A stretch of DNA of 64,000 nucleotides from Halorarum salinum (GCF_013402875.1 NZ_CP058579.1:1922001-1986000); one strand, 5' to 3'; counted from the first letter of the stretch, positions 24,582-47,160 are shown. Notes: a model not told the origin generated them from the sequence alone. Translations and numbers: made by a program.

Positions 24582-26576
24582 ATGGCTGACCGCCCAGCCG
24601 CACCACGGCCACACGAGTTGGACCAATTACAGGCGTTGATGGAGCGGGTCGGTGAGGATGAGGATCGGGTCGACAACCTGCTCACCGTCGCGGCACGGAA
24701 TGCAGAGACGTACGGGAGCCTCATGGACCTGTATCAGCGGAGGGTCGCACAGGTCGTGACCAAAGATGTGTTCTATCCGTACGAACGTGTGGATGGCGAA
24801 CTCACACTTGGGACGGATCCCGACGGACAGCAAATCGCGCTCACCCGGGAGCAACTGAACGAACACCTGCTGCTCGTGGGCATGACGGGGAGTGGGAAGA
24901 CGACGTTCTTCTATAATCTCATGGAGACGGCGATGACTGCTGGACTGCCGGTCATGGTGTTTGATTTCAAAAACGACTACCGCCACCTCGTGGACGATGA
25001 CGAGGACCTCCTGGTGATCAACTGGCGGGATTTCAAATTCAATCCGCTCGCCCCGCCACCTGGCGTCCAACCGGGGAAGTGGGGCGAGATTTTCGCCGAT
25101 ACGTTCGCCCATACCACTGACTTGCTGATCGGCTCGGAGAGTTACTTTCTCGAGCGGCTGGGGCTGCTCTACCAGATTTACGAGCAGGCGGATACCGAGC
25201 GCGCGCCCTCGTTGTTCGAATTGCGCGACCTCGTACAGGCCGACTGGATTACCAAGGCCTCACCGAAGTTCAGGTACAAGGAACGGGTCGCGAGCCGTCT
25301 TTCGATGATAACGGGATTTTCTGGTGAGATCTTGGACTGTAGCCAGGGGTATCCGCTCGAAGACCTACTTGAACGGAACGTCGTGTTCGAACTGAAGGAA
25401 CCCAACCAGTTTGCCACCAACTTCGTGATCGAAACGATGCTGACGTGGATCTTCTACTACCGAGATGCACAGGGACAGCGGCAGGGATTGCGCCACCTCA
25501 TCTTGTTCGACGAGGCCAAACGCGTCTTCGATGTGAATCGCGAACGCCAGCCAGAATCCGGGTTTCCACCGATCGACGATCTCGTAGGGAAAGTCCGGGA
25601 GTTCGGGGAGGGGCTGGTCGTCGCAGACCATGAACCGTCGAAATTGACGGACAGCATCAAAGCCAACACGCACACCAAGCTCTGGTTGACGCTGGGCAGC
25701 GGGACGGATACCCATGAGATGGCCCGGACCTTCGGGATCGAACAGGAGGCGGTTGACTTCACCCGGACGATGCAAAAAGGCGAAGGCCTGCTGAAACTCG
25801 CTGATCGCGATCCCGTCCCGATTTTGCTCCCGGACTATCCGGTGGAGAAGGTGATGACGGAACCTGAGATCCGGAGCCGGATGGCACCCAAACTGGATGC
25901 ATTCGCGACTGCCGACAGAGAGCGCCCGGCACGGTTTGAGGAATTTCTGGACCACGACGAGAAGGACGAGTCGACGGACTCAACCTCCAGTGTCGAAGCG
26001 GCTGGCGAGGCCCTGCTTGCAAGTGTGAACGACCAGCCGTTTCTCGGGATGGCCGAGCGGTACAAAGCACTCGGGGTCGATACGAAGAAGGGAACGAAGG
26101 CCAAGAACGAGCTGGTCTCGTTGGACCTCGTGCGTGAGGTTGAGGTGAACACCTGGAAACGCGGACGGAACCCGAAACTGCTGGAACTCACCAGTGAAGG
26201 TCGCCGTGTGCTTCGCGAACGCGGATACGAGATCCGCTCGAGTGGCAAAGGTGGGATCGAACATCAATGGTGGCAGGAGAAAATCAAAGCCCACTACACC
26301 GAGCAGGGCTATGATGTGACGGTCGAGTACCATCTTGGGAAGAAGAGCATCGACGTCTACGCTGTGGCCGGCGATGAGTCGGTCGCGATCGAACTTGCAC
26401 TCAGCCCGGACCATGAAGTCGAGAACATCAAGAAGTGTCTGGCACAGGGGCCGGACCGCATTCAGGTCGTCTATACGGAGACGGCTGTGAAAGACAGTAT
26501 CCAAGCCGCCTTACGTGAAGAACTGGGCAGTATCCCTTCGACCGTTTCGTTTTCCTCCGTCACTGAATTCACATAG
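24582..26576 (+). CDS. HerA/TraD-like ATPase with winged helix and nuclease-like tail
   Basis: 664 residues. The ATPase part has Walker A VGMTGSGKTTFFYNLM (about residue 99), DFKNDYRHLV, a Walker B LILFDEAKRVFDV (about 306) and GEGLVVADHEPSKLTDSIKANTHTKLWLTLGS, all typical of HerA/FtsK/TraD hexameric DNA motors. A winged-helix-like segment follows (KGTKAKNELVSLDLVREVE). The end (residues about 565-650) has a nuclease-like fold: GYDVTVEYHLGKKSIDVYAVAGDESVAIELALS, with an Asp...Glu pair but Ala-Leu where PD-(D/E)XK needs the Lys, so cleavage is doubtful. It could be a DNA translocase for conjugation or a defence motor. Confidence 0.7.
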   Translation: MADRPAAPRPHELDQLQALMERVGEDEDRVDNLLTVAARNAETYGSLMDLYQRRVAQVVTKDVFYPYERVDGELTLGTDPDGQQIALTREQLNEHLLLVGMTGSGKTTFFYNLMETAMTAGLPVMVFDFKNDYRHLVDDDEDLLVINWRDFKFNPLAPPPGVQPGKWGEIFADTFAHTTDLLIGSESYFLERLGLLYQIYEQADTERAPSLFELRDLVQADWITKASPKFRYKERVASRLSMITGFSGEILDCSQGYPLEDLLERNVVFELKEPNQFATNFVIETMLTWIFYYRDAQGQRQGLRHLILFDEAKRVFDVNRERQPESGFPPIDDLVGKVREFGEGLVVADHEPSKLTDSIKANTHTKLWLTLGSGTDTHEMARTFGIEQEAVDFTRTMQKGEGLLKLADRDPVPILLPDYPVEKVMTEPEIRSRMAPKLDAFATADRERPARFEEFLDHDEKDESTDSTSSVEAAGEALLASVNDQPFLGMAERYKALGVDTKKGTKAKNELVSLDLVREVEVNTWKRGRNPKLLELTSEGRRVLRERGYEIRSSGKGGIEHQWWQEKIKAHYTEQGYDVTVEYHLGKKSIDVYAVAGDESVAIELALSPDHEVENIKKCLAQGPDRIQVVYTETAVKDSIQAALREELGSIPSTVSFSSVTEFT

Positions 26577-27243: not shown

Positions 27244-27433
27244 GCAGCTGATTGTGGACTTGTTGGTAGAGGGCGGGCCGTGTACGGAAGCGGCAGAGTA
27301 ACTCATCGAGAAGATTCACGGAGACGGCAGTAGCAATGGTTCGCGAGTAGTGTGATTCCGTTACTTCCGAGCATGGAAAGACCCAACCTTGCTTTAAGAG
27401 TTCGTGGCCCGGCTGGGGATAGATCGCAGCGAT

Positions 27434-27785
27434 ATGCCTGCGGTGGTCGGTGCAGTAACAATGGGCGAATCTGAAACGATCTATACCGCTATCCTGACGG
27501 CAGAGTACCGCGATGAACAGGATTCGTTTGACATCGATATTCAGTACGTGGAGGCGTTGCCGGCTCGTGGGCCGTCTACGCTCGTATACGGCCGGTATCC
27601 AATCAGAACATTAGCTGCCGGCCTGGACAACGATACGGAGAACGCCTTCACCGACTATCAGGCTCTGCAGGGACTCCCGAACGGGCCGGAAACGATGGTG
27701 AGACACACGAAATCAGGCGTTTCGGTGTTTCACGAGCCGGTCTGGATTGGGGCTCAAAGTCGAGTGGTTCGCACGAGAGCGAACC
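27434..27785 (+). pseudogene. Possible 5' gene fragment running into recombinase 3
   Basis: In the same frame as the 3' half of recombinase 3, an open frame from 27434 (MPAVVGAVTMGESETIYTAIL) gives about 110 residues of protein-like, acidic sequence (DIQYVEALPARGPSTLVYGRY). It has no own stop before the recombinase start at 27786, where the frame becomes antisense-like noise. It may be a small gene truncated by recombinase insertion. No family is recognised. Confidence 0.3.
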
Positions 27786-28795
27786 ATGGAACTCGAACCT
27801 ATCGACCCCGAAACGGCGCTGGAACTGTACATCGCAGAGAAAGAAATGGAGCTGTCGAAGTCGACGCTCCGGTCACACCGATCGCGGCTCGGCCACTTCA
27901 TCCGGTGGTGCGACGAGCGCGACATCACCAACCTGAACGAACTGACGGGCCGGAAGCTCCAGGAGTTCCGTCTCTGGCGACGGAACGACGGCGATCTTTG
28001 CAAGGTGAGCGTGAAGACGCAGATCGACACGCTGCGCGTCTTCATCCGGTGGTTGGGTCCATCGACGCTGTAGACCCAGAGTTGTACGTCAAGGTGATCT
28101 CACCGGACGTGACCCCGGACGAGAACAGCCGCGACGTAAAACTCGACGCCGAGGACGCGGAAGCGATTCTCCAACACCTCGAAACGTACGAGTACGCCTC
28201 TAGGGATCACGTCACCATCGCGCTGCTCTGGCACACGATGTTGCGGCGTGGAGCAGCCCGCGCCCTCGACGTCGACGACTACGACCCAGAAGAACAGTGT
28301 CTCGAGGTGCGGCATCGACCGGATTTGGACACGCCGATCAAGAACGGAACCGACGGCGAGCGCTTCATCGGGTTGTCCGGGTGGTTGTGCCAACTGCTCG
28401 ACGACTGGCTGCGCGATCGCCGCCCCGACGTGACGGACGACTACGGGCGCGAACCGTTACTGGCTACGCAGTACGGACGGCCGTCCAGGACGACGATCCC
28501 AAAGTACGCGTACCGGTGGTCACGGCCCTGCGCGTACGGCGAGGAGTGTCCGCACGGGCGGAATCTGGAGGATTGTGAAGCGACGGAGCAGGGACACGCG
28601 TCGAAGTGTCCTTCTTCGATCAGCCCGCACGCGATCCGCCGGGGGAGTATCACGCACCATCTGAAGGAGGACATCCCGGAGACCGCTGTGAGTGGTCGGG
28701 CTAACGTCAGTCAGCGGGTGCTGGACCAGCACTATGATCGGAGGACTCAGAGAGAGAAGATGGAGCAACGGAGAAAGTATCTGGATCAGTTGTAG
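27786..28795 (+). pseudogene. Tyrosine recombinase 3, frameshifted
   Basis: The start at 27786 (MELEPIDPETALELYI) aligns with paralogues 1 and 5. The frame runs through the core-binding domain (TLRSHRSRLGHFIRWC) to FIRWLG and then stops. The rest (SIDAVDPELYVKVISPDVTP onward) continues in the next frame to 28795. The break is at about 28054-28057, where GGTTGGGTCC lacks one base compared with the expected TGGAGTCC. Beyond it all catalytic elements are intact: MLRRGAARALDV, TPIKNGTDGERF, SPHAIRRG, VLDQHYDRR, and the CAYGEECPHGRNLEDC cluster. Either a recent pseudogene, an assembly error or a programmed shift. Confidence 0.75.
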
Positions 28796-29526: not shown

Positions 29527-29961
29527 AACTTTCGGCCTGAACAGGGCGGTCCACCGGATGCGGTCGTCTACGTCAATGACGTCAAGATCGAAGCAGAGTC
29601 CATGGCGGCGAGCGCCTTCGCGCAGGTCCGAGATCTGCTCCCGTGAGGGTTCGGTGTCGGAGTGGGTCTCCTTCTCAACGAGGGTTAGGTCGTCTGTCAG
29701 TTCGTTCACACGGTTGGCATCGGGGATGCGGTCGTTGATCTCCGGTGATCAGGGCGGCGGCCGGTGTGATCGGCGAAGGGGACATCCTCGAGCGCAGCTT
29801 TGACCAATTCGATGAACCTTAAACCTCTCCTGGGCATCATACCATACCCAAACCCAATGGTGGTCGACCTTTTTACGCAACTCCGAGATGTTATCGTCAG
29901 GGGAAATCTCCCATCGAAGCGCATGTTGAGAGTAGAGACTGATTTCATTTCGGGTCGTCAC
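29527..29961 (-). pseudogene. Decayed gene in three frames
   Basis: Protein-like pieces follow one another in three minus-strand frames: NEISLYSQHALRWEISPDDN and HHWVWVWYDAQERFKVHRIG (29961 down to about 29815), FIELVKAALEDVPFADHTGR (to about 29755), and INDRIPDANRVNELTDDLTL with CFDLDVIDVDDRIRWTALFR (29735-29550). Order is collinear, so it is one gene broken by at least two frameshifts. No family is recognised. It is convergent with the glycosylase-like pseudogene and downstream of the Rad50-like gene. Confidence 0.45.
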
Positions 29962-29998: not shown

Positions 29999-32500
29999 CT
30001 AATTCCATCGAAGATCGTAGTGATTGCGGCAATTGCATCTCAATTCGCAGTATCCGTCGAACTCCTCGTACCGGATCGAGGAGCCACACTCATCGCAATA
30101 GAGGAGATCATAAGCTTTCTTGTGGGCTTCATAGACTTCCTCAAACTCGTCAAGACTGAGTGTCAACCATTTTCCTGGAGACCAGTGGACTCGTCGATTT
30201 ACCTTATTGAGCTGCTGACCGACGTCGTTTAGCACTTTGCCAAACTCACTATCAAGATCATCTACGCGTTCCCACATCTCTTCCTCATCATCGGCGTGAA
30301 GATTCAGGTTGTCCTTTGCTCGGCCTGTGAGGGTGTTCAGCCTCCCCGAAACTGCATCCCTGAAGTCACTAAGCCGATATGTCCCACTGGGGTCATACTC
30401 CACTTTCCCCCCTATTGACATACACGTCTGTTGTAACATTCGCTCCGTAGCATATCGGAGCTCGTGAGCCGCTCGTTCCATCTCGTCGTCAGCCATAGCT
30501 TCTTCGACCGTTTCCCACTGTTCGTAAACATCGATGTAACTTCGGCTCTCTTTCACCCCGTCGTCTATTGACCACTCGCGAAGGTGGACCTTTGATCCGC
30601 CGTAGAGTGCCCCCTGGGACCTCAGTTGTTCGGCCCAAAGCTCGTCGTGGGTAGTAATGATGATCTGATATTCATCTGCAAATTCCTCAGCAATCGTACG
30701 TGCAATCTGAAGCCTATGATCTTGATCAACGGACATGACGACATCATCGAGGAGAAGAAGCGATTTTTCGTCGTGTTGCAGATAATCAGTAAGCGCGAGA
30801 TGAAGACAGAGTCCCAAGGAATCGAGATGTCCCTCGCTAAACACGGAATGGGGAGGATATTCCCCGGCATCGTAGAATTCCTTCTTAAGATCAGCTCCTG
30901 TATCGGTCACTTCGATCGAAGCTTCCGTCCCATCTTCATCGGGGTGAATCGAGCAATAGTAGGACTCCACTCGATCCGTGATGTCCTCGTAGATCGCACC
31001 AATGACCTCACAGCGTGATTCGATGAAAGCCCTTTCAGCAGTCTCGACATCACTGAGGAGGGATCGAAGTCGGTCGACCTCCTCATCGAGTTCCTCGTAT
31101 TCCTGCCACCGCTTTGCGATTGTGTCGATCCGCTCATATTCCTCCTCGGCCTCACTGAGGTCGTCGAGCTCTTCCGTCCGGGACTGGAGTGAATTGGAGG
31201 CTCTGACAATCCGTTTATCTTCAATATCGATCTTCGGGGCCTCTGGTTCACAGATTGGCAACTCCAATCGATGGAAACTTCGATCGTGAATCAGACCTCC
31301 CCGGAGGGAATCCAATGATTCCTCAACTCTTCGTTCGAATTTCTCCAATTCCTCGACTTCCGGATATTCGTCTTCATCCAATTCCTTGACGAGGTACGTG
31401 AGGTGGTCCAGTCCCTCTTCAAGACGGTTGACAATATCCTGCTGAAGTTCGTCGAGGTGATTGAGTACGCTTTGGAATTCTCGGAGTTCCTCCCGCCGTC
31501 GACGAACGTCCTCATGCAATGGCATTTTCTCGTCCCAATCCTGCTGACAAAGCGGGCAAACGTCTGCGTCAGGAGGGATTACGTCCTCACCGAGTTCTAG
31601 CAGCTCAAGCCGTTTTGCGCTAACATCGGCCGATTCTCGTTCTCTGCATTCCTCAAGCAACGAGTTCACCCGTTCGAGTTCTGTTGGCAGCTCTTCCTCC
31701 AGTCGGTCGAGCCAAGCAACAAAATTCTGGAGTTCCACTTGGGGTCGCTCTCGACGGAGCGCCTGGGCAGAAAGTGTCTCAAGCGGGGATTCGACGTCAT
31801 CTCGGACGGATTCTGGATCGATTGTCTCAATCGGATCGCCGCCAAAGGATTCTCGTAGCCCGTTAATCTCCTCTAGAAGGGCCTTCCTCAGTTCGTGTTC
31901 TTCGTCCGTATTTGAATCTGCAAGCTCTTGGAGTCGCTCAAACGTGTTTTCTCGCTTGGCTTTTGCGTCTTCTAACTCACCTTCGAGGTTCCTACGGGTC
32001 CGTTGTAGTGATAGTCGCCTGTCATCGATGTCAGGCAGGTTTAACAACTCACTGAGAACTTGCCGTCGAGACTTCGGTTGCGTGATGATGAGGTCCAAGA
32101 GATCATCACGTGTAAGGATGTGCTGGCCTTGCTGGGCCGTTTCGATGATGTGGAGCAATGAATCTGGAAGGTCTTCTTGTGGCGGATCGAGGCGGGAATC
32201 GTCGACAGATCGCTGAACGTCTACACTATCGTCCGCACTCTCATCATTAAATGTGGCCGACACGACACAATCGCCATCTGCATTGACGTTCCGAATGATC
32301 TCATCTTTATTTACACTCCCCATTCCAGGTCGATCCAGCTGTCGAATATTGTTTGTGAGAAGATAGTTGATGGCCTCTAAGACCGAACTCTTCCCAGATC
32401 CGTTCGGCCCTACGATGATCGCATTTCCACAGTCGGGCTCGAAGGTGTATTCGTCCTTGATTCCCCGAAAATTCTGAATCTTGAGTGTCTGAAGTTCCAT
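29999..32500 (-). CDS. Rad50/SMC-like ATPase with zinc-hook CxxC and C-terminal zinc ribbon
   Basis: 833 residues. The N-terminal ABC half has QNFRGIKDEYTFEPD and Walker A VGPNGSGKSSVLEAIN (about residue 31). Long coiled coils (about 150-310 and 330-490) flank CPLCQQDW near residue 315, a Rad50-style zinc hook. The C-terminal half has the signature-like FSEGHLDSLGLCLHLAL and Walker B KSLLLLDDVVMSVDQDH. After the ATPase comes a helical part and a zinc ribbon (YCDECGSSIRYEEF, LRCNC). No Mre11 partner is nearby. Instead a 58-residue gene lies 3 bases upstream. This resembles SMC-type defence ATPases (Lamassu or ABC-three-component kinds) more than housekeeping Rad50; that is inference. Confidence 0.75.
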   Translation of the reverse strand: MELQTLKIQNFRGIKDEYTFEPDCGNAIIVGPNGSGKSSVLEAINYLLTNNIRQLDRPGMGSVNKDEIIRNVNADGDCVVSATFNDESADDSVDVQRSVDDSRLDPPQEDLPDSLLHIIETAQQGQHILTRDDLLDLIITQPKSRRQVLSELLNLPDIDDRRLSLQRTRRNLEGELEDAKAKRENTFERLQELADSNTDEEHELRKALLEEINGLRESFGGDPIETIDPESVRDDVESPLETLSAQALRRERPQVELQNFVAWLDRLEEELPTELERVNSLLEECRERESADVSAKRLELLELGEDVIPPDADVCPLCQQDWDEKMPLHEDVRRRREELREFQSVLNHLDELQQDIVNRLEEGLDHLTYLVKELDEDEYPEVEELEKFERRVEESLDSLRGGLIHDRSFHRLELPICEPEAPKIDIEDKRIVRASNSLQSRTEELDDLSEAEEEYERIDTIAKRWQEYEELDEEVDRLRSLLSDVETAERAFIESRCEVIGAIYEDITDRVESYYCSIHPDEDGTEASIEVTDTGADLKKEFYDAGEYPPHSVFSEGHLDSLGLCLHLALTDYLQHDEKSLLLLDDVVMSVDQDHRLQIARTIAEEFADEYQIIITTHDELWAEQLRSQGALYGGSKVHLREWSIDDGVKESRSYIDVYEQWETVEEAMADDEMERAAHELRYATERMLQQTCMSIGGKVEYDPSGTYRLSDFRDAVSGRLNTLTGRAKDNLNLHADDEEEMWERVDDLDSEFGKVLNDVGQQLNKVNRRVHWSPGKWLTLSLDEFEEVYEAHKKAYDLLYCDECGSSIRYEEFDGYCELRCNCRNHYDLRWN

Positions 32501-32503
32501 GGA

Positions 32504-32680
32504 TTAGCTCCTATCCTCTATCACTTGTTCAGAGAACTCATAAGGCGGATCGTCAGCCAAGGCGTTGGCGAGAATAGTCTCTGCAACGTCTTCGTCAACG
32601 CTACTCTCCTCAATTTTCGATCTGAATGTATCGAAAATCTCCTCTCGGATTTCGTCAGTGCTCGCACCTGGTTGGACCAT
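32504..32680 (-). CDS. Small protein partnering the Rad50-like ATPase (58 aa)
   Basis: 58 residues, MVQPGASTDEIREEIFDTFR through ETILANALADDPPYEFS to the stop 3 bases before the ATPase start. It is mostly helical and acidic. The tight spacing means co-translation, so it is probably a subunit or regulator of the ATPase, as the small middle components are in ABC-three-component systems. There is no sequence family recognised. Too short for standard calls, but codon usage, start and position agree. Confidence 0.6.
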   Translation of the reverse strand: MVQPGASTDEIREEIFDTFRSKIEESSVDEDVAETILANALADDPPYEFSEQVIEDRS

Positions 32681-32846
32681 TGATGGTAAACGTAGCTGAC
32701 TGGTAACTAAAAAAACTCTTTGGGGATTCGAGTGTTTTTAAGCCCGTAAGCGAATAGTTCGACTTCAGCTTCGGGAGCCTATTGGAGAACTTCATACTGG
32801 CACAACGACGTTCTACGGAGGTGTTTGGCAGAGGGTTCGACGAGGA

Positions 32847-32987
32847 GTGGTGACTTCTGTACGTCGTATCACGCGAGTCGAGAGCCAGGTGGTCTTTGCT
32901 GCCGGCGAAGAACCGAAGGCGTTCTTGGAGGCGTTATCGATCGATATCGTCGAATTCAAGACGGAATCAACCATCAGATTCGTTTAG
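32847..32987 (+). pseudogene. C-terminal fragment of an unidentified protein
   Basis: A frame ending at 32987 reads TSVRRITRVESQVVFAAGEE and PKAFLEALSIDIVEFKTEST, protein-like to the stop. In the same frame upstream (to about 32750) the sequence remains plausible (LQLREPIGELHTGTTTFYGG) but there is no ATG, GTG or TTG before the GTG at 32847. It overlaps the stop of recombinase 4 by 21 bases, tail to tail. Probably the remains of a gene truncated by a rearrangement at the recombinase. Confidence 0.35.
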
Positions 32988-34082
32988 CGCATTGCGGAGA
33001 ACTTCTCGCCGCTGCTGTATCTTCTCGTCTTCAGTTCGTATATCGTAGTGTTCGTAGATTACCACTGGTGAGACGTTGCACCGGTCACTGACGACCTCGA
33101 CGGGAACACCCGCCTTGAGGAGTCGGGTGATGTAGCCCCGACGGATGGGGTGCGGCGTGACGCTCGACGGGCACTTCGACGCTTGGTCAAGATCGGTTGC
33201 GGCGCCGCACTCGTCGGGGTCCCGGTCGTGAGGACACTTCAGACCGACCACACATTGGCGGGACCACTTGTAGACGTACTTCCGAATGGTCGACTTCGAG
33301 AGCCGACCCTGTGGAGAGGCTAGCAGTGGATCACGACCGTGCTCATCCGCCACGTCCGGCCGTCGGTTCTTGAGGTAGTCCTCGATGAGGTCACACGCCT
33401 CTGAGGTAATACTAACCGGCCGCTCTCCCTGGGGACCGTTCTTGAGCGGCGTCTCGGTATCTGGCCGGTGGACCAGCTTCAGATGCGGGTGTTCGTCCTC
33501 CCGCTGATAGTCGTCGACATCAAGCCCGTGAGCGCCGCCCATCCGCATGCCCGTCTCGACCAGAATTAGCCAAGTCAAGTGCTCGACGGTCGCGTACTCG
33601 TACTTCTCCAGGTAATCGAGGATCTCGTTTGCCCGGTCCGTCGTGAGGGTAGTCTCGCGGACGTTCCCGCCGTCGGGGATGACGGGCGACTTAATCTTCT
33701 TGAACAGCCCGTGCTGCACTGCGTCGATGGTCTCACACCACTCGACGAACACGCGGAGCGTGTCCATCTGGGTCTTCTCGCTGGTGACGTTGAGGTCTTC
33801 GCGCCGCCAGACGCGGAACTCGTGGACGTCGCGAGCGGAGAGATCGTTGAGGTTTTCCATGCCCTGCTCGTCGCACCAATCGACGAAGAAACCGAGCCGG
33901 GACCGGTGGGACCTGACGGTGGCCTGCTGGCACTCGCGGGCCTTATCCTCCAGGTAGAGGTCCAGCGCCTCCTGCGGTGAGATCGGCTCCAGCGTCGTCT
34001 CCGTCCGCTCCAAGATGTCCCGGAGGAGCGCTTCGGTCTCGTCTGAATCGATTACATCGGGGATGTCGTTCGACACAGTCAC
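32967..34082 (-). CDS. Tyrosine recombinase 4 with Cys/His insertion
   Basis: 371 residues. N-terminal helical extension (ETEALLRDILERTETTLEP), core-binding domain (ATVRSHRSRLGFFVDWC), catalytic Arg in GMRMGGAHGLDVDDY, Lys in TPLKNGPQGERPV, HxxR in TPHPIRRGYITRL and Tyr in VIYEHYDIRT. The Cys/His cluster CVVGLKCPHDRDPDEC with KCPSS is the clearest in the set. It is the only paralogue with an overlapping small upstream gene (ATGA at 34079-34082) encoding an RHH-like protein, giving a recombinase-repressor operon. It borders the broken toxin module and the Rad50-like operon. Confidence 0.87.
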   Translation of the reverse strand: MTVSNDIPDVIDSDETEALLRDILERTETTLEPISPQEALDLYLEDKARECQQATVRSHRSRLGFFVDWCDEQGMENLNDLSARDVHEFRVWRREDLNVTSEKTQMDTLRVFVEWCETIDAVQHGLFKKIKSPVIPDGGNVRETTLTTDRANEILDYLEKYEYATVEHLTWLILVETGMRMGGAHGLDVDDYQREDEHPHLKLVHRPDTETPLKNGPQGERPVSITSEACDLIEDYLKNRRPDVADEHGRDPLLASPQGRLSKSTIRKYVYKWSRQCVVGLKCPHDRDPDECGAATDLDQASKCPSSVTPHPIRRGYITRLLKAGVPVEVVSDRCNVSPVVIYEHYDIRTEDEKIQQRREVLRNALNESDG

Positions 34083-34527: not shown

Positions 34528-35095
34528 TCAAACTGGACGATCATGCTCGATATCCGCTTCGGAAAAGGTGACCTCGAACGTCCGCGCGCGGCGGGTAGTC
34601 AGGCGGTTGTACCCTATTCGGGTCGTTCCGATGTACTCGTTCAATTCAGAAACGACGTCGTCGGCTAGATCGAGTGTAACGGTCGCGACGTGCTCGTCTT
34701 CCAAGTGGTCCTTGAGTGTCACCGGATTCCAGGGCGAGACGAACGATCGCCGCGGGAGCGACCTCTCGATGAAGGGGTCGTTTCGTTGCGTCCTGTGAGT
34801 GTAACAGCCGCAACGACGTGTTCCTCGCCGTAGAAGGGATGCCGGTCGTTGGAGATGACGCCGTCCGGCCGTCGGCCACCGGCATCAAAGGTAGTTCGGG
34901 CTGTAACAACGGCCTCGAGCGGAAACTCCCTTCAACTGTCCTCGGTTTCTCTGAGACGTTCGAGGTCGTCTGTCCAGTCGGGGTTCCGACCGTACCTCTG
35001 GTCTTCGTACGCGGAAGTAACAGGCGTGAGATCGAATCTTGGCCAGTTCTCATACTTGTTACTTGATCCTGTATAGATGACCCTCTCTGGATCTT
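34528..35095 (-). pseudogene. Broken toxin-antitoxin module (MazF/PemK-like toxin, upstream antitoxin remnant)
   Basis: Reading leftwards, an antitoxin-like C-terminus (YENWPRFDLTPVTSAYEDQR to RLRETEDS) ends at the TGA at 34932-34934. Immediately after comes a MazF/PemK-like sequence: FPLEAVVTARTTFDAGGRRP, DGVISNDRHPFYGEEHVVAA, then, after a shift near 34785-34795, FIERSLPRRSFVSPWNPVTL and VATVTLDLADDVVSELNEYI. SND and SPW are typical of the toxin fold. The toxin has no start codon after the antitoxin stop, and the antitoxin loses its 5' end at the RecQ gene. So it is probably dead. Confidence 0.55.
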
Positions 35096-35121
35096 GGGAA
35101 ATACTTTTAGCGAGACAACCG

Positions 35122-37215
35122 ATGAGAGGGGGCGTGGACTCGGATTCGAAAAGTGGGATCAGGCGGCGGGGCCAGGAACTATTGGAACAGAGTCTCGGAC
35201 TAGACGCGGAGTTCCGGCCCGACCAATGGGAGGCGATCGAGCGCTTGGTCGTCGACAAGGAGCGGGTACTACTCGTCCAGCGAACCGGGTGGGGGAAGAG
35301 CACGGTGTACTTCATCGCGACAAAGCTACTCCGCGAGCAGGGCCACGGCCCGACGCTCATCATCAGCCCGCTGCTGGCGTTGATGCACAATCAGATCCAG
35401 GACGCGGAGAACCAGCTGGGTCTCGAAGCCTGGACGATCAACTCCAACAACACGGAAGATTGGACCGAAGCGAAGGAAGCTGTCGTCGACGGAACCTGCG
35501 ACGTTCTCCTGATCTCGCCGGAACGGTTGGCGAATATCGAATTTCACGAGGACGTCCTGATGGAAATGGACGACGAGTTCGGGATGCTCGTGGTGGACGA
35601 AGCTCACTGTATCTCCGACTGGGGCCACGATTTCCGTCCCGATTATCGTCGTATCAAGCGTATCCTCCAGGAATTCCCGGATCACATCCCGGTCGCGGCG
35701 ACGACTGCGACTGCGAACGACCGGGTGGTCGACGACGTCACCGACCAGGTTCCTCGACTCCGGGCGATTCGTGGCGACCTGGTCCGTGATTCCCTGCGCA
35801 TCCAGACGAATGAGATCGGCTCCCGAGCCAAACGTTTGGCCTGGCTCGCCGAGATCGTCCCGGAACTCCCGTCGTCGGGTATCGTTTACTGCCTGACGAC
35901 CGACGAGGTCGAGACAGTCGCCGAGTGGTTGAGCGATCAGGTGTTGGACTTCGAGCCCTACCACGGTGGGATGGACGGCGACCGTCGCCGTGAGTTGGAG
36001 GATCGACTGATGAACAACGAAGTCGACGGTCTGGCCGCGACGAATGCGCTGGGGATGGGGTTCAACAAACCGGACCTTGGGTGGGTCGTCCACTTCCAGC
36101 GACCGCCGAACCTCATCCGGTACTACCAGGAGATCGGCCGGGCTGGTCGGGGCCTCGAGGAGGCATTCGCAATCTTGCTCTCGGGGGACGAAGACGACCG
36201 GGTCGCGGAGTTCTTCATCGAACAGGCCTTCCCAGAGCCGGAGGATTTCGAGACCGTCCTCTCGACGTTGGAGGCCAGTAACGAACCGTTACACAAGTAC
36301 GAGATTCTGAAGCGGGCGAACATCTCCTGGAAGGCTGCCTCGCAGTGCCTGGACATGCTCAGGGTCGACAACGCCATCATCCGGGTCGACGACGGCTTCG
36401 AACGGACGTCGAAGGACTGGAGCTACGACCACGACCGGATCGAATCGGTGACCCGACACCGGTGGGAGGAACTCGATCGAATTCAGGAGTTCGCCAGAAC
36501 CGACGAGTGCCTGACAGCGTTCATCGACGACGAACTGGATGGTTCTCTCGAGGGCGACTGCGGCCGTTGTGCAAACTGTACTGAGCCGGTTATCCCGACC
36601 GACATCGAGGACGAGCGGCTGATCCAGGCGGCCGTTGAGCACTATCGAGCGGAGTCGTGGGACGAGATATCGCCACGGTACTACCTGCCGACGGAGAACG
36701 GTAAATCGAAGATCGAAAAGCACCGGAAGCACGAACCGGGTCGCGTCCTATCCGTGTACGGCGACCCCGGATACGGTGAGCTCGTGAGTCAATCCTGGGA
36801 ACAGGAGGACACGTACAGCCAGGAACTGGTCTCTGCAGCTGTACGGCAAATCGAGACCGAATGGAACCCCACTCCAGCGCCGACGTGGGTGACGGCGGTA
36901 CCGTCGCCAACCGACTGGCCGAAGGTTCGAGACCTCGCTCGACGAATCGCGGCCGGGCTTGGACTAGAGTACGTCCAGGCAGTTGAACGGGTCAAGGAAA
37001 TGCGACCACAGCATGAGTTGGCGAACTCCTACCAGAAACGATGGAACGTGGAGGATGCCTTCGACGTTACTGAGGATGTTCGATCGGCGCCGGTGTTGCT
37101 TATCGACGATACCGTCGGATCTCGGTGGACTTTCACAGAGGCAACATTCGAGCTACGGGACGCAGGAAGTGGGTCGGTCTATCCGTTCGCGTTAGCTGAG
37201 CGGACTATGTGGTGA
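35122..37215 (+). CDS. RecQ-type DNA helicase fused to a phosphoribosyltransferase-like domain
   Basis: About 697 residues from 35122 (MRGGVDSDSKSGIRRRG); the ATG at 35077 is an alternative. Helicase motifs: FRPDQWEAIERL, Walker A RTGWGKST (about residue 54), DEAHCISDWGHDFRPDY, TATTAT-like AATTATAN, TNALGMGFNKPDL and YYQEIGRAGRG. A zinc cluster (CLTAFIDDELDGS with CGRCANC) follows, as in RecQ. The C-terminal end holds VLLIDDTVGSRWTFTEAT, a PRPP-binding-type loop, so the tail is ComF-like. RecQ unwinds DNA 3' to 5'. The fusion partner may sense or bind a nucleotide. Upstream is the truncated toxin module; downstream the nuclease gene. Confidence 0.8.
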   Translation: MRGGVDSDSKSGIRRRGQELLEQSLGLDAEFRPDQWEAIERLVVDKERVLLVQRTGWGKSTVYFIATKLLREQGHGPTLIISPLLALMHNQIQDAENQLGLEAWTINSNNTEDWTEAKEAVVDGTCDVLLISPERLANIEFHEDVLMEMDDEFGMLVVDEAHCISDWGHDFRPDYRRIKRILQEFPDHIPVAATTATANDRVVDDVTDQVPRLRAIRGDLVRDSLRIQTNEIGSRAKRLAWLAEIVPELPSSGIVYCLTTDEVETVAEWLSDQVLDFEPYHGGMDGDRRRELEDRLMNNEVDGLAATNALGMGFNKPDLGWVVHFQRPPNLIRYYQEIGRAGRGLEEAFAILLSGDEDDRVAEFFIEQAFPEPEDFETVLSTLEASNEPLHKYEILKRANISWKAASQCLDMLRVDNAIIRVDDGFERTSKDWSYDHDRIESVTRHRWEELDRIQEFARTDECLTAFIDDELDGSLEGDCGRCANCTEPVIPTDIEDERLIQAAVEHYRAESWDEISPRYYLPTENGKSKIEKHRKHEPGRVLSVYGDPGYGELVSQSWEQEDTYSQELVSAAVRQIETEWNPTPAPTWVTAVPSPTDWPKVRDLARRIAAGLGLEYVQAVERVKEMRPQHELANSYQKRWNVEDAFDVTEDVRSAPVLLIDDTVGSRWTFTEATFELRDAGSGSVYPFALAERTMW

Positions 37216-37308: not shown

Positions 37309-38588
37309 ATGGCCGCGACCGACGATCTCGAAGAGCGACTCCGAGAGCTCCGGGCCTCGCTCGAGGCGCTGCCATCGGTGTCGGAGCCACCGAAGACGAC
37401 ACTCCGGATTCTCGGCTCGACGAAATCGGAGCAGCACTGGAATACGCTTCTGGCCTACTTTCTCGACCCGTCGCAGCCACACGGGTTCGGTCCCGACTTG
37501 CTCAAGAGTTTCCTCGACCGAGTCCAGATCGAGACCGACATCGACCTTGAGTACTTCCACCGAGATATCGAGGCCGTCTCAGTGGACACCGAGCTCACGT
37601 CGCCACGGGACAACCGGCTCGACATCGTGCTTCGCGCGCCCAATGCGTGGTTCGTCTGGATCGAAGCCAAGGTCGACGCCTCCGAGGGCACCAAACAGAC
37701 CGATCGGTACGTTAAAGATACGCACCTCGGCAATGAGGAGAAAGCCGAGTACCCCGACGACGGTCAGCACTACCTCTTCCTCTCGAAGGAACATGCACCG
37801 GACTCCAGTGCCGGCGAGTTCGAGGACCTGTACTGGCGCCACGTCGTCGAGGCGTTCAGAGACGAACTCAACCACGCACACGGTCAGTATCCGGAGCGGA
37901 GCGTCAATCAACTACGGAGTTCCTGTCGACGATCATCAGGGTGACCAGCATGGAAGACGACGACTTCACGCAAATCCAAAAGGAGAAGGTGCGATTGCTC
38001 AACGAGTACCGCGACGATATCGACGAGCCCCTCAATGCGGCCGAGTCACTGCGTCAACGGTCTATCGAGGAGTGGCCGGAGCGATTCCGGAGTGAGCTTG
38101 ATGACGAGCTCTGGACCGAGGATTGGCTGGTCCGCGAAGACCCTGGGAAGTGGGGCTGCATCTTCCGCGAAGGCTGGTACCTTGATGACAATAATCTCGA
38201 ACCGACCCGGGACCACGTAGAGACACAGGGACCTACAGGGTTCCGACTGCACTACGTCCACCTGATCCGAAACGAGCGGTCTTTCACGGAGGGGGAACTC
38301 ACCTATCTCCTGCGCTGCTCGACGAGTGTCCCGATGCGAGATGAGTTCCATCTGCTCTTCAACAACGATCGATGGCAGGAGAGACTTCGCCCCTTGTTGA
38401 AAGAGCGTGGAATCACGAACAAGGGCAACAAACGTGACCTGATGCAGAAGACCTACGACGTGGACCAATCGGGGCTTCCAGAGAGCTACTTCAAAACGCT
38501 CGCGACAGCATCCGATGAACACCTCCCGATCGCAGAGGTAATTAACGATATCGTTGCTGAAGCCCGCTCAAATGTCCTGGACACATAA
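37309..38588 (+). pseudogene. PD-(D/E)XK nuclease gene split by one frameshift
   Basis: First part, 37309 to about 37912: MAATDDLEERLRELRASLEA, SEQHWNTLLAYFLDPSQPHG, catalytic DNRLDIVLRAPNAWFVWIEAKVD (Asp...Glu-x-Lys) and TKQTDRYVKD. The frame then stops at 37944. The continuation TEFLSTIIRVTSMED is in the next frame and runs to 38588 with KWGCIFREGWYLDDN and a SAP-like RGITNKGNKRDLM. One base appears lost near 37913 (CAACTACGG for CAACTAACGG). The domain matches PDDEXK_4 proteins. The second half could be a separate ORF from 37941, but continuity of sequence favours one broken gene. It follows the RecQ-PRTase gene. Confidence 0.6.
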
Positions 38589-40534: not shown

Positions 40535-41737
40535 CTACAACGTTAAACTCTCGGCCGGGCATCCATTTTCTAAGATGTATCGACAGTTGCCGGAAAGTCC
40601 CTTGGTCAACGGATTTCTCGAGCCAACAAAACTATCGAACAAATTTGACGTCACCCACTCAGTATCCCCACCCTCATCTTCTCCGTGGAACGTGACCCCC
40701 TCTGGCACCCGAAGCCGTTCGTACTCACGCCCCCTCTGAACCCTTTCCTGAAGCGACCGAGTCAGCTGCCACCTGTACGAGTCACGCTGCTGGTGACTCT
40801 GTGTCCTTGCAAGCGCGTTGAGCGTAAACCGCCGCTCGATGTAATCCCGGAAATCCGGATCGAACGCCCCTAAAAATGCATCCATGCTATCAAACTCGTC
40901 TGGAAGTTCCGGATACTCTCCAGGGTAAGCACGTGGATCCAACTCGATCGTGTCGAAGAACGCTTCATCCCGGACGCCACGGATAGGAAGCCCATAGTCG
41001 CAGCGTTTGATGTGCTCCTTGAGGTCGTCCCAGAAATAGACGAGCGGATGATGGCTCGTGGATCGATCGCCGAATTGGCAGTAGGGGTACGTGTCGAGGC
41101 CCGTCATGGCCCACTTTTGAGTACGGTACTTCCCGATTACATGGGACCGATCCAAAGCTACCGGGCAGTACTCAACGTAAATCCAGGAGAGCTCTTGACG
41201 ATGTCGCAACGCCTGAAGAAACACGGCGTACGCATCAACGAACACAGACCTCGCTAGCCCCTCTCTGATGTGATCTTGTTGGGGAACGGCCGGTAGTGCC
41301 AAGAATGCCTCCCCAGGGCTATACTGGAGGACGAGGTTGTACACCTGCGTCATGTTCACACGATAACAGAGCCATTGGATCGCGGAGTCATCTGGACCGA
41401 GAACGCGGGTCTTGACGGGGGCCTTGTGTTGAAAGACGACCTCTTTGGCCGTGTCGAGCTTGATGTCATATCCCTTCCCGAGCGGTGACTTCGTGTACTG
41501 TGTTCCGCCTTCTTCGACTCGGGTGGGTGCGAGGGCAATCCGTCGCTTGAATCCGTCAGCTAAGGCCGAAAGCTGCTCGTGCGTGATGTTGACCTCCAGG
41601 GTATTCTCGTTCGGGAGCGTCCCGAGGTCGGCGAAAACGTCGTCAGGATAAACTCGAAAAACGAAGTCTCCAATTGTGAAATCCAAATAACCTGACGGGC
41701 CTCCTCTGAATTGGTAGGTCATATAACCTATCTTCAC
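40535..41737 (-). CDS. Unknown 400-aa protein coupled to Ski2-like helicase-nuclease
   Basis: 400 residues with no family I recognise. The start overlaps the helicase stop by 4 bases (41734-41737), so it is translationally coupled and probably part of the same system. The N-terminus is beta-rich (LDFTIGDFVFRVYPDD, TLEVNITHEQLSALADGFKR). At residues about 95-110 LDTAKEVVFQHKAPVKTRV gives an Asp...Gln-x-Lys pattern that could be a QxK-type variant of the PD-(D/E)XK nuclease core. The middle is helical with Cys (YCPVALDRSHVIGKY) and the C-terminus acidic/aromatic. Nuclease character is inference. Confidence 0.6.
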   Translation of the reverse strand: MKIGYMTYQFRGGPSGYLDFTIGDFVFRVYPDDVFADLGTLPNENTLEVNITHEQLSALADGFKRRIALAPTRVEEGGTQYTKSPLGKGYDIKLDTAKEVVFQHKAPVKTRVLGPDDSAIQWLCYRVNMTQVYNLVLQYSPGEAFLALPAVPQQDHIREGLARSVFVDAYAVFLQALRHRQELSWIYVEYCPVALDRSHVIGKYRTQKWAMTGLDTYPYCQFGDRSTSHHPLVYFWDDLKEHIKRCDYGLPIRGVRDEAFFDTIELDPRAYPGEYPELPDEFDSMDAFLGAFDPDFRDYIERRFTLNALARTQSHQQRDSYRWQLTRSLQERVQRGREYERLRVPEGVTFHGEDEGGDTEWVTSNLFDSFVGSRNPLTKGLSGNCRYILENGCPAESLTL

Positions 41738-44541
41738 CGCTCGCCCAAGATGCGTTTGACCTCACGTCGGGTGAGGTGACCGGTGCTCGTGAACAACTCG
41801 GCGAACGTCTCTGGTTGAATGGTCGAACGTTCGGCGTGTATCATCAACGTAGTAAATGCAGCCACCGGAAGCAGAAGGACTCCTTGACGCCTCGCCTCAT
41901 CGTGCGCCCCCGAGGCGAACTGTGGCGTCCCAATGGTCAGTTGGAATGGTTGGGTGTCGGCCTTCCGGACCACGTCGGTCGCGTTATCGACGCTAATCTC
42001 TCCTTCCTCAAGGTCCTCCTTCGACTTGCATTCGACGGCAATCACGAGGGGGGTCCCATCAACCTCGTACGGCGTACTCTGATCGTCATTCAGGATTGTA
42101 AGTTCGCCCTCGGGGTATCGATCTTGCCCCTGTTCGTCGAAGCTCCGGTATTGCAGTCCATTGCAGTTCCCCAGACGCTCCTCACAGTGGTTTTCGAACA
42201 CCGTCTGCGTCGTCTCGAAAAGGGATCGAATTGCCCCAGTATCGGCCCCCTCACTTCGGGCATCAAGTAGCGTGTTTCGGCGGGAGAGCTCGGGTTCCTC
42301 GCAGAACTCATTGATTGCCCGACGAGTATATTTGAACGCCTGCTGACCGGGCATCTCGCCGAATAATCGGAACATGGGTCCAGTCGCAATCTCGCTTGGA
42401 TGCTCGATATCGAGCCCGTCACGCATGTGATCGATCCACCGCCGCTCCGTCGCGATGTGGTGTCTGGCAAATGCCGCCCCACCAGCGTCCAGCCCGTAGC
42501 GCACCTGGTATTCCAGCTGTTCGAGCTGGTCGTTGAATACGGCCACGAGCGGGTCTTCTGCCTCTTCCAGGATCTCCGTGAGCGTCTTAATCCCGCGGGC
42601 GAACATCGGCGCGGCCCGTTCGCTTACGTCGCTGGGCGTCCGACTACTCGTGATTCGCCGTCGAGTGAAGCTCACCCCGAGCTCCTCTCCCCTGAGCCAA
42701 TCGGCAATGACCTGGGCCGTAACCAGCGCGTTCGCGAGCGTCTCGTCGGAGAGATCATCTGAATCGGGAAGGGGTAGTCGGTCGCGAATCGGTTCGAGAT
42801 CAATTCCCCTCTCACCACCACGGCGGTATAGCCGGCACTGATCGAGGAGCGGTGACGCACCGAGTACTGTGAGGAAGTCGATTACGTCGAACTTGTCCAG
42901 CGATTTAACGTCCCGGAGGTAGCGGACGGCCGCGTGCACCGTCGCCGGGGCGATGAGCTGCTTTGAGGTCGCGTACCCGAGGTCGGTTAGGTCGAACCGG
43001 CCCGATGATTGGCCGGAATCCACCATGCCCTGAGCGATCAGCTCCTCAACCGTGGCTTCGATCCCCTGGATCGTCTCCGATTCAGGAAGGTCGGTGGTCG
43101 CACCGTGGAACGTGTCTGAAAGGAACTCGTAGATTCGATCCGGGCCTTCGTACTCCCGAATCAGATCGAGCACGAGTTCCGGGTCGATAGGGTTGATCGC
43201 CGAGGTGACGGGTTCGATGTCGCCGGTGAGAAAGTTGTCGTAGAGGTCCTGCTGTTGGAGCGCGTTCTCCGCATACAGTACTGCCTCCCCGGGGTCATCG
43301 CCGTACTGTGGCCGCCCCGATCGGCCGACGAGGTTCTTGTATTCACCGGTCGTCATCGGCCGGCCGTATTCGCCGGAGCCGCCGAGCCGCGGCTTGGTGA
43401 TGAAGACGCGATCGATCGGGAGGTTAATTCCGGCCCCGAGGGTAGTCGTCGACACGACGACTCGTAAGCTGCCGTCTTCAAGTCCGCCGACGACACATCG
43501 TTTCACGGTATCGTTCAGACCAGCGTGATGGAACCCAACGCCGTGAGGGATGCACGCTTCGAGCGCTTCCTGCACCTCGCCACGTCGATCTGCGGCGTCC
43601 GAGATCCGCTCCTCGAGATCACGGGTGACGACCCTGTCGACTTCGACCGGACCACTTCTGGGGTGGTCGCGTAGGAAGGAGGCGATTGCTTCCGCGTACC
43701 GTTTTGCATCCCGTCGGATCGGGGCAAAGATCAGCGCTTGTCGCCCGGGGTCGCCACTTAGGAACTCCAGCGCTGGGTTGACATGGGGGACCTGCTCGAC
43801 GTACCTCGAAACTGACTCTGTGATTGGTTCGTCTTCCCGATAGAGATTGAGCTCATCGCTTCCAACGACGTGGGTGCCTTCCCAGAGAGAGCACTTTCGC
43901 CAAGTTCCGGAGTCGCTCCACTCGGCCGCCAACCACTTGGCCACCTGTTCACAGTTGGGCGCCGTCGCACTGAGCCCCACGACGCGAATCTCCGGGTACT
44001 CAGTTCGGAGCTTGGTTGCCACGACCTCGAGGTTAGGCCCGCGCCGCTCGTTACTGAGTGTGTGAAATTCGTCGATGACGACTAGGCCGATTTCGTTAAT
44101 GTAGCCCCCATGATTTCGGAGGTGATAGTCGAATTTCTCGTAAGTCATCACAAGAATGTCGGCTGCGAACAGCTCGACTGGTTCCATTCGATCCCCACCC
44201 AGCGAGGTCTCCACGGATAGGTCGAATGTATCGCCGATCGTCTCCCGGAACGTCTGAGTTTTCTCCTCGGCAAGTGATCGATAGGGGATGAGGTACACAC
44301 TTATTTCCCGTTCGACGGCCGTCGCATTATCGACGATGGCGAACTCGGCGGCAAGGGTCTTGCCAGTTCCTGCTTCCGCGACCATGAGAAAGCTCTCGGC
44401 GTTGAGAAGGCCTGCATTGAGTGCGTCGAACTGGGTTCGCCAGAGGGAATCGATATCCCGATCGTTTCGTAAATGGTCGACATACGTACTGACGAGCCCG
44501 TACTTACTAGTGAGCAACTCGATTTCCGAACTCGTACTCAT
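41734..44541 (-). CDS. Ski2-like DEAD/H helicase with C-terminal nuclease-like domain
   Basis: 935 residues. Helicase core: Walker A AEAGTGKTLAAEF (about residue 54), VIDEFHTLSN (DEFH box, about 154), VVGLSATAPN, a second RecA domain with AGINLPIDRVFI and YKNLVGRSGRPQYGD. Winged helix and helical-ring-like regions follow, as in Ski2/Hel308. Near residue 840, PLVIAVECKSKEDLEEGEIS has a Glu-x-Lys after a preceding acidic strand (a PD-(D/E)XK pattern). Ski2-type helicases unwind RNA or DNA. This one is coupled by 4 bases to an unknown 400-aa gene, and divergent from a DUF4268 gene. Antiviral function is inferred from this context (compare Hachiman HamB). Confidence 0.75.
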   Translation of the reverse strand: MSTSSEIELLTSKYGLVSTYVDHLRNDRDIDSLWRTQFDALNAGLLNAESFLMVAEAGTGKTLAAEFAIVDNATAVEREISVYLIPYRSLAEEKTQTFRETIGDTFDLSVETSLGGDRMEPVELFAADILVMTYEKFDYHLRNHGGYINEIGLVVIDEFHTLSNERRGPNLEVVATKLRTEYPEIRVVGLSATAPNCEQVAKWLAAEWSDSGTWRKCSLWEGTHVVGSDELNLYREDEPITESVSRYVEQVPHVNPALEFLSGDPGRQALIFAPIRRDAKRYAEAIASFLRDHPRSGPVEVDRVVTRDLEERISDAADRRGEVQEALEACIPHGVGFHHAGLNDTVKRCVVGGLEDGSLRVVVSTTTLGAGINLPIDRVFITKPRLGGSGEYGRPMTTGEYKNLVGRSGRPQYGDDPGEAVLYAENALQQQDLYDNFLTGDIEPVTSAINPIDPELVLDLIREYEGPDRIYEFLSDTFHGATTDLPESETIQGIEATVEELIAQGMVDSGQSSGRFDLTDLGYATSKQLIAPATVHAAVRYLRDVKSLDKFDVIDFLTVLGASPLLDQCRLYRRGGERGIDLEPIRDRLPLPDSDDLSDETLANALVTAQVIADWLRGEELGVSFTRRRITSSRTPSDVSERAAPMFARGIKTLTEILEEAEDPLVAVFNDQLEQLEYQVRYGLDAGGAAFARHHIATERRWIDHMRDGLDIEHPSEIATGPMFRLFGEMPGQQAFKYTRRAINEFCEEPELSRRNTLLDARSEGADTGAIRSLFETTQTVFENHCEERLGNCNGLQYRSFDEQGQDRYPEGELTILNDDQSTPYEVDGTPLVIAVECKSKEDLEEGEISVDNATDVVRKADTQPFQLTIGTPQFASGAHDEARRQGVLLLPVAAFTTLMIHAERSTIQPETFAELFTSTGHLTRREVKRILGER

Positions 44542-45824: not shown

Positions 45825-46373
45825 ATGGAAATCGTGAGTACAATGGGAACCGGTTCGCTTGGGCGCGAACTGGACTTAGAGCCTCTCGTTAGCGATCTTC
45901 AGTCACGACTTGGTGAGGTAGTGAATGCGAATTTTCGTGGCGACGCTATGGTGACCGTCCGATTAGAAGAAAACGGACCTGCCTACACAATCTATCGAAC
46001 TGGGTCATTCCAAATCCGGGGTGCCGAGACTGAAGAGGATTTGGTAAGTGCAGAGGGACGCTTCCGAGAAGCATTAGATGAACTTGATATTGAGGTAAAC
46101 GATTACGAATTTGAACACGTGACTTCGGTGTTCATGGAAACCCTTGACCAAAAGGTAGATCTTGAAACTGCGATGATTGCTCTTGGGTTGGAAAATGCCG
46201 AATACGAGCCGGAACAATTCCCAGGACTCATTTATCGCCCTCCCTCTTTCGAGGTCACCTTGCTGGTCTTCGCAAGCGGGAAGATCATCATTGGCGGAAC
46301 TACTGACAGGAACCAGGCCCTCGATGCAGTGAACCGCCTACGAGAGCAGTTAAGTTCCATAGAACGCGTTTGA
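45825..46373 (+). CDS. Divergent TATA-binding protein paralogue
   Basis: 182 residues. A TBP has two direct repeats. The second is well kept (YEPEQFPGLIYRPPSFEVTLLVFASGKIIIGGTTDRNQA) and the first is diverged (FRGDAMVTVRLEENGPAYTIYRTGSFQIRGAETEED). The N-terminus MEIVSTMGTGSLGRELDLEP replaces the usual acidic tail and matches the start of its neighbour. Divergence suggests a specialised promoter factor. It is convergent with a second TBP. A 28-residue frame just upstream (45720-45806) is unsupported. Confidence 0.8.
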   Translation: MEIVSTMGTGSLGRELDLEPLVSDLQSRLGEVVNANFRGDAMVTVRLEENGPAYTIYRTGSFQIRGAETEEDLVSAEGRFREALDELDIEVNDYEFEHVTSVFMETLDQKVDLETAMIALGLENAEYEPEQFPGLIYRPPSFEVTLLVFASGKIIIGGTTDRNQALDAVNRLREQLSSIERV

Positions 46374-46924: not shown

Positions 46925-47121
46925 TCTATGATCCTCTATGTCACGTCTCTCATCTCACCGAATAATAAACTGCGGTAACTGGCTTTCTTGGTCGCCGGTC
47001 TTTGCTGGATGTACAAACTGCCAAAAATCGCAGCTGTCGAGAGGTGACGTAGGTTCATATACGAAAACGAGGGGAATTACCCTCGGATGATTCACCGACA
47101 GCCCGCGACTGTTTGCCAAGA

Positions 47122-47129
47122 GTATATAT
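47122..47129 (+). promoter_or_regulatory. TATA box of the methyltransferase-helicase operon
   Basis: GTATATAT lies 32-39 bases before the ATG at 47161 and 14-21 before another at 47143. Transcription should begin near 47150, which argues against the in-frame TTG at 47113 and for 47161. Confidence 0.5.
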
Positions 47130-47160
47130 GGTGCTAGAGAGAATGGCCGTCAAGCGAAAT

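Follow-up and report, generated by a model that had tools for sequence, protein, structure and literature searches.

The window analysed here is a 64-kb stretch of the Halorarum salinum chromosome (C1:1922001-1986000 of a 4.26-Mb genome), and all positions below are counted from its first nucleotide. It carries a pair of genes on the minus strand, as are all motifs of the pair given below. The upstream gene (32504..32680) encodes a small, acidic protein of 58 residues, which we call the companion. The downstream gene (29999..32500) encodes an 833-residue Rad50/SMC/LmuB-like ATPase with a zinc hook, a predicted HEPN-like domain at its C-terminus and a zinc ribbon, assigned from the open reading frame, Pfam, PADLOC and alignments. 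The ORF calls leave 3 bp between the companion stop codon and the ATPase ATG, exactly the arrangement described in an earlier note on this DNA.

That note had also proposed SMC ATPase halves, a CPLC zinc-hook-like motif and an additional C-terminal zinc ribbon, all of which held up. Pfam AAA_23 (75 bits) and SMC_N (69.5 bits) match the protein and cover both ATPase halves. With Pfam AAA_13 (PF13166), a family that we take to cover RloC and PrrC, it scores 19.7 bits against a cutoff of 36, and the C-terminal domain lies outside the match. The Walker A motif GPNGSGKS (residues 31-38; 32387..32410) was identified in a haloarchaeal alignment and in a second alignment that combines archaeal and bacterial proteins. 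The hook motif CPLC (residues 315-318; 31547..31558) is invariant in the 16 haloarchaeal homologues aligned, and the CPxC pattern is invariant across 13 archaeal and bacterial homologues. A signature-like motif, SEGH (residues 555-558; 30827..30838), follows, in which SEG is invariant and the fourth residue is His, with a single Gln, in both alignments. The Walker B motif LLLLDD (residues 581-586; 30743..30760) ends in an Asp pair that is invariant in both, with Asp in place of the catalytic Glu that is usual in ABC ATPases. The AlphaFold model of the full-length ATPase is poor (pLDDT 57.6, pTM 0.40) and supports only the overall arrangement of an SMC-like head and coiled coil; in this low-confidence model the hook is placed between long helices at residues 251-307 and 327-373.

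By itself, a 58-residue ORF is uninformative, because 104 ORFs of at least 40 aa overlap the 11-kb stretch around the pair. When the gene pairs were surveyed, as the earlier note had suggested, a companion gene lay upstream of each complete ATPase homologue that was checked, whether archaeal or bacterial. Sixteen haloarchaeal loci, counting the window, have a small ORF (called at 58-94 aa) whose end falls at the ATPase start or slightly within it. The companion dN/dS is 0.11-0.19 among three relatives (L027, L028 and L029), a comparison made between relatives, synonymous sites being saturated against the window itself. Searched against 391 haloarchaeal genomes, a companion profile gave strong matches (E of about 1e-14 or lower) in 17, and these are the same 17 that contain the ATPase, with no orphan companion; three weak matches, which fall within ORFs of 400 aa, resemble noise. 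Since 16 of the 17 loci went into the profile, finding those 16 again is by construction, and its independent support comes from the seventeenth genome (G364) and the absence of orphans. Conservation upstream of the homologues, the dN/dS values and co-occurrence in the same 17 genomes together establish that the companion gene is real and under purifying selection.

The companions have few features in common in alignments, among them one invariant Phe near the middle. Most members are acidic; one from a Nitrospirota bin (L042) is only weakly so (pI 5.3), which argues against charge mimicry as a general property of the companion. The author of the earlier note did not recognise the small protein, and it has no match in Pfam, NCBIfam or PADLOC. 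The companion is probably translationally coupled to the ATPase, and a coupled tiny gene in first position is the pattern expected for an antitoxin or an obligate subunit. The gene order and overlap of the pair also fit a toxin-antitoxin layout, with a small gene upstream of a larger one.

A C-terminal domain with candidate catalytic residues

The region beyond the ATPase core comprises a putative HEPN-like helical domain and a zinc ribbon (residues 658-833; 30002..30529), delineated from an AlphaFold model and VIA-align. The ribbon cysteines at 802, 805, 822 and 824 (30029..30097) are present in all 22 domain-bearing homologues. Past position 645, the invariant residues in these 22 archaeal and bacterial proteins are A677, R682, E686, H772 and the four Cys; G648, W662, A678 and N768 are each absent from a single protein. 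Two motifs supply candidate active-site residues, R682-x3-E686 (30443..30457; 22 of 22) and N768-x3-H772 (30185..30199; His in 22 of 22, Asn in 21 of 22). In the module ATPases the Glu and His are 80-87 residues apart, and R, E and H are kept even in two more distant SMC-like proteins (L057 and L094). These three residues and the Cys are retained although the remainder of the domain diverges, which suggests that the domain is catalytic.

A model of the domain built from three sequences (pLDDT 66, pTM 0.64) consists of a helical bundle followed by strands. The top VIA-align matches to this model are mostly HEPN proteins (2q00, 8.2; 2hsb, 7.9; 4nqf, 7.8; 1ufb, 7.4; 1o3u, 7.3; 1wol, 7.2). These Z values of 7.2-8.2 are below 13 and can be reached by unrelated helical bundles, and Foldseek E values are 0.1 or worse, so the evidence for a HEPN-like fold is suggestive rather than proof. 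The classic HEPN Rx4-6H motif is absent from the domain; the conserved His is instead part of NxxxH and the invariant Arg lies in the R-x3-E helix. Searches of PDB sequences and of Pfam with the C-terminal domain returned nothing significant.

The domain is present in 13 of the 16 aligned haloarchaeal members and in all bacterial members. Four variants, L035, L036, L038 and L075 (Halomontanus), have the companion and an ATPase of 644-657 aa and lack both the C-terminal domain and the zinc ribbon. The ATPase and companion in these variants must therefore function without the domain or with some other effector, and the domain may not be the sole effector of the family. Conversely, at one locus (L058, 9670-10203) a 177-aa ORF encodes the C-terminal domain alone, in which R, E, H and the Cys are retained; a UvrD-like helicase and a partner gene adjoin it, and this lone domain is possibly a deletion remnant.

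Distribution and defence neighbourhoods

The ATPase is patchily distributed, occurring in 17 of 391 haloarchaeal genomes. In bacteria, the pair is found on plasmids of Rhizobium, Mesorhizobium, Sphingomonas, Roseibium, Phaeobacter, Pseudohalocynthiibacter and Bradyrhizobium; the companions on these alphaproteobacterial plasmids are annotated 'hypothetical protein' and usually overlap the ATPase by 4 bp. It is also present in a contig of a viral collection (L056) and in the Nitrospirota bin, which is at least one true relative among the matches listed from a scan of genome contigs; a second candidate from the contigs, L043, was dropped, having the appearance of an ordinary SbcC-type protein. 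No viral sequence matched in scans with single sequences. Profile scans of viral sequences returned L056 and the two distant proteins L057 and L094, which belong to other subfamilies, and the remaining matches were generic P-loop proteins. Phage records contained no match to the module. Most bacterial and most haloarchaeal copies stand alone, without BREX. The pair is a mobile two-gene module spread over Archaea and Bacteria.

Three haloarchaeal copies lie inside BREX operons. Two of these (G029 and G284) have a BrxC-like gene, pglX, companion, ATPase, pglZ and brxL in this order, all on a single strand. In the third, on plasmid pHTIA of Halorhabdus tiamatea (G079), the pair is placed between pglX and pglZ genes annotated as BREX-5, on the same strand, in a locus that also holds BrxA, BrxB and BrxHII. 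A TIR gene related to ThsB/PDC-S66 is situated between pglZ and brxL in the G029 locus (L028, 14752-15951). Elsewhere, some 12 kb separate pglZ from the ATPase (G271), or the pair adjoins DUF499/DUF1156 genes (Halobacterium noricense, G320), adjoins a DndH/SspH-like protein (G058) or lies near a DrmD/BrxH-like helicase (G036). With the window counted, roughly half of the 17 copies in haloarchaea lie within or close to a modification-based restriction system. The association of the pair with defence is well supported, and the likeness to SMC-based antiviral systems remarked on in the earlier note is borne out both by these BREX, DUF499/DUF1156 and Dnd/Ssp-like neighbours and by LmuB as the best match in PADLOC. 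Neither the association with BREX nor the RloC-like residues of the C-terminal domain figure in that note.

The window itself retains a trace of such an operon. A frameshifted remnant of the start of a BREX pglZ gene lies directly downstream of the ATPase (29760..29898, minus strand), detected by tblastn as two pieces (63% and 50% identity, E 2.5e-8) and by a DNA match (74% over 104 nt, E 7e-14). It covers the first 52 codons of pglZ, and its distance from the ATPase stop codon equals that of pglZ in an intact BREX operon (L028). Upstream of the companion, the window showed no convincing pglX remnant, and a search found no PglX or PglZ elsewhere in this genome, a negative that falls short of proof. 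Because the pglZ remnant is present and PglX and PglZ were not found elsewhere, the window copy is most readily seen as what survives of a lost BREX operon, now flanked by integrases. One of these tyrosine integrases lies at 32967..34082 (minus strand; Pfam Phage_integrase, 48.6 bits), and the other, on the plus strand at 27404..28795, is split between two frames that match the L027 integrase at 27789-28058 and 28052-28792.

A census of PglZ in the 391 genomes identified 23 with a BREX-1-like PglZ and 62 with a BREX-5 PglZ, and the pair is nested in two of the former and one of the latter. It is absent from all 31 other pglZ-upstream regions inspected. The contents of the pglX-pglZ junction vary among these 31 haloarchaeal loci (L166-L196), from nearly empty to single small genes or 353-aa genes, and other junctions hold OLD-like ATPases of 551-713 aa, at times accompanied by an 820-aa gene, or further genes. 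In haloarchaea this junction is a variable cargo slot in BREX-1-like as well as BREX-5 loci.

Other genes of the window were recorded as well. It contains six related tyrosine integrases, including the split one, with matches at 5530-6540, 10758-11789, 27789-28792, 32991-33992, 54212-55216 and 55339-56235. A HerA-like ATPase of 664 aa (24582-26576) lies upstream of the split integrase. A UvrD-like helicase, mostly accompanied by a PD-(D/E)XK-type partner gene, is found next to or near the module at L027, L033, L039, L058 and L074, and positions 32798-32969 of the window may hold a fragment of it (E 1.6e-5). A RecQ-like helicase (35077-37215; PADLOC PsyrT, 813 bits) followed by a PD-(D/E)XK protein (37309-37944) is likely another defence system. 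Positions 40535-44541 hold a helicase whose matches are HamB (Hachiman)-like and Hel308-like, with an unassigned 400-aa gene ahead of it in the same direction and overlapping it by 4 bp; the two are possibly a Hachiman-like pair. An overlapping pair of a PglX/type IIG-like methyltransferase and an SNF2-type DrmD-like helicase (47113-53860) is a possible restriction or BREX-related system. The defence island of the window also contains an extra TATA-binding protein gene with two TBP repeats (45825-46373; 99 bits).

A proposed mechanism and its alternatives

We are evenly balanced on whether the pair is a self-contained, mobile backup module against viruses, often carried as cargo of BREX or another modification-based restriction system, in which a zinc-hook ATPase acts as the switch that frees an RNase. 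By analogy with RloC and PrrC, the simplest reading would be that the ATPase and hook sense and the RNase-like domain acts; the cargo role is likewise drawn by analogy, PrrC riding in a type I restriction operon as the pair does in BREX. The ATPase would dimerise through the zinc hook, and its heads might sense DNA ends or other abnormal DNA of infection, or restriction that has been disabled. An ATP-driven rearrangement could then free the HEPN-like domain as an RNase, and cleavage, probably of tRNA or some other structured RNA, would stop translation. The part of the companion is the step that we hold most loosely: it might bind the ATPase head or the base of the coiled coil, and there either hold the RNase off or sense the trigger. 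The location in BREX operons and the standalone plasmid copies would fit either restriction loss or DNA breaks as the trigger.

As the earlier note had observed, no mre11 gene adjoins the ATPase, and none occurs within the 64-kb window. The true mre11-rad50 operon of the same genome is at C1:3159962-3164051, 1.2 Mb from the pair. A distant homologue (L037, 26% identical) does adjoin mre11, and that operon too has a genuine rad50 of its own. We therefore rejected a housekeeping Rad50 with an mre11 neighbour, the outcome that the note had named as counting against its proposal. An assignment as archaea-specific SMC-related protein (ASRP) was also discarded, the score with NCBIfam NF045487 being 39.6 against a cutoff of 300. 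A divergent Rad50 dedicated to end processing rather than defence could draw on the GO term for double-strand break repair in the automatic annotation of several relatives and on the mre11-rad50 neighbours of L037. We nevertheless regard it as very improbable given the patchy occurrence, the separate operon, the defence-island and plasmid contexts and the extra RNase-like domain.

Two other alternatives keep the pair within defence, and we consider each of them unlikely. The pair could be a reduced Lamassu system, with the ATPase as LmuB, the companion as a shrunken LmuC, the C-terminal domain as a structural element and the effector elsewhere. For all members tested the best PADLOC match is LmuB PDLC03859, which scores 62-113 bits and aligns with almost the entire ATPase, and the full-length model has solved Lamassu structures among its fold matches. 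A CPxC hook is frequent in LmuB, which at about 650 aa is similar in length to the short variants, and its small partner LmuC is missing from some systems (PMC10586767). However, neither the window nor the loci viewed showed a recognisable LmuA-like gene beside the pair, and for that reason we did not file the pair under Lamassu. The companion matches no PADLOC model, the full-length model fits Lamassu no better than Rad50 or cohesin, and most members carry a C-terminal domain with conserved catalytic-type residues. Lamassu (LmuA, LmuB and LmuC; DdmABC) resembles the pair in its zinc hook and, in many systems, a small middle subunit, whereas the partner in the window is far smaller and without a library match, the ATPase has an extra C-terminal domain, and its Walker B motif has DD as against the usual Glu-to-Gln. 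Alternatively, the ATPase and a tiny adaptor could scan DNA and so help or license BREX or other restriction, in the manner of DndD-DndE, with the HEPN-like domain only binding nucleic acid. The position of the pair inside BREX operons and the persistence of variants without the domain would suit such a role, and Dnd systems do pair ABC ATPases with a small DNA-binding partner (PMC10853773). Against it, the pair occurs without BREX in most bacteria and most haloarchaea, and the retention of R, E and H points to catalysis. An SMC gene cluster is upregulated in infected Halorubrum lacusprofundi (PMC10544981).

Within the reading of the pair as an antivirus switch, a narrower proposal is that it represents an undescribed two-gene guard family of Archaea and Bacteria, in which the tiny subunit controls the zinc-hook ATPase-RNase and allows it to fire on restriction loss or DNA ends. 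We put this forward tentatively and with some doubt; the family has possibly been described before, for example in the supplements of a 2026 BREX survey or in the 2020 ABC-ATPase survey of Krishnan and colleagues. If it is correct, the companion would define a new class of sensors or antitoxins serving SMC-like defence proteins, and some BREX operons would carry a second layer of defence, a zinc-hook RNase active when restriction is blocked, in parallel to PrrC in type I restriction and PARIS in BREX. The logic of RloC and PrrC would then reach archaea, where to our knowledge few abortive systems have been tested, and SMC-type immunity would gain a tiny control subunit. As a small, self-contained pair on plasmids of culturable alphaproteobacteria, the module is easily testable in laboratory strains.

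Comparison with known systems

The ATPase and DUF4435 pair of Salmonella LT2 is presumably PARIS-like. In the StySA BREX locus this pair lies between pglX and pglZ and is, like the pair described here, a two-gene ATPase module in the pglX-pglZ junction, a precedent for cargo at this site (PMC9009780), although its partner is a DUF4435 protein and that in the window is a tiny protein. The main text of the 2026 BREX survey lists OLD-ABC, HEPN, Schlafen, PIN and HNH proteins as accessory effectors and names no Rad50/SMC-type zinc-hook ATPase among them; the OLD-type ATPases described there are, like the window ATPase, accessory effector ATPases taken up by BREX loci (PMC12839542).

RloC shares with the window ATPase the Rad50-like ATPase halves, the zinc hook and a C-terminal Arg-x3-Glu...His arrangement. 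In RloC this is Arg-x3-Glu-x36-52-His, with each residue needed for tRNA cleavage, and zinc-hook mutations raise activity (PMC2610378); the enzyme is activated by DNA breaks (PMC3874168). The spacing of R682-x3-E686 is that of RloC R692/E696 (PMC2610378), whereas the Glu-His gap of 80-87 residues in the window family exceeds the 36-52 of RloC, and the family adds the zinc ribbon and a constant tiny partner gene. Both are linked to restriction loci, RloC sometimes so (PMC2610378, PMC3710099), but the context of the window family, unlike that of RloC, is usually BREX, DUF499 or standalone on plasmids. PrrC sits in a type I restriction operon, EcoprrI (PMC3710099), where the co-encoded restriction enzyme keeps it silent until a phage anti-restriction peptide triggers it (PMC2610378, PMC3710099). 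For PrrC, the papers cited here describe no adjoining small partner of the window type, and the zinc-hook/coiled-coil insert is described as setting RloC apart from it, the window ATPase having the hook. PrrC nevertheless resembles the window ATPase in combining an ABC ATPase with a C-terminal nuclease that has an Arg-Glu-His triad, and in its restriction-operon setting.
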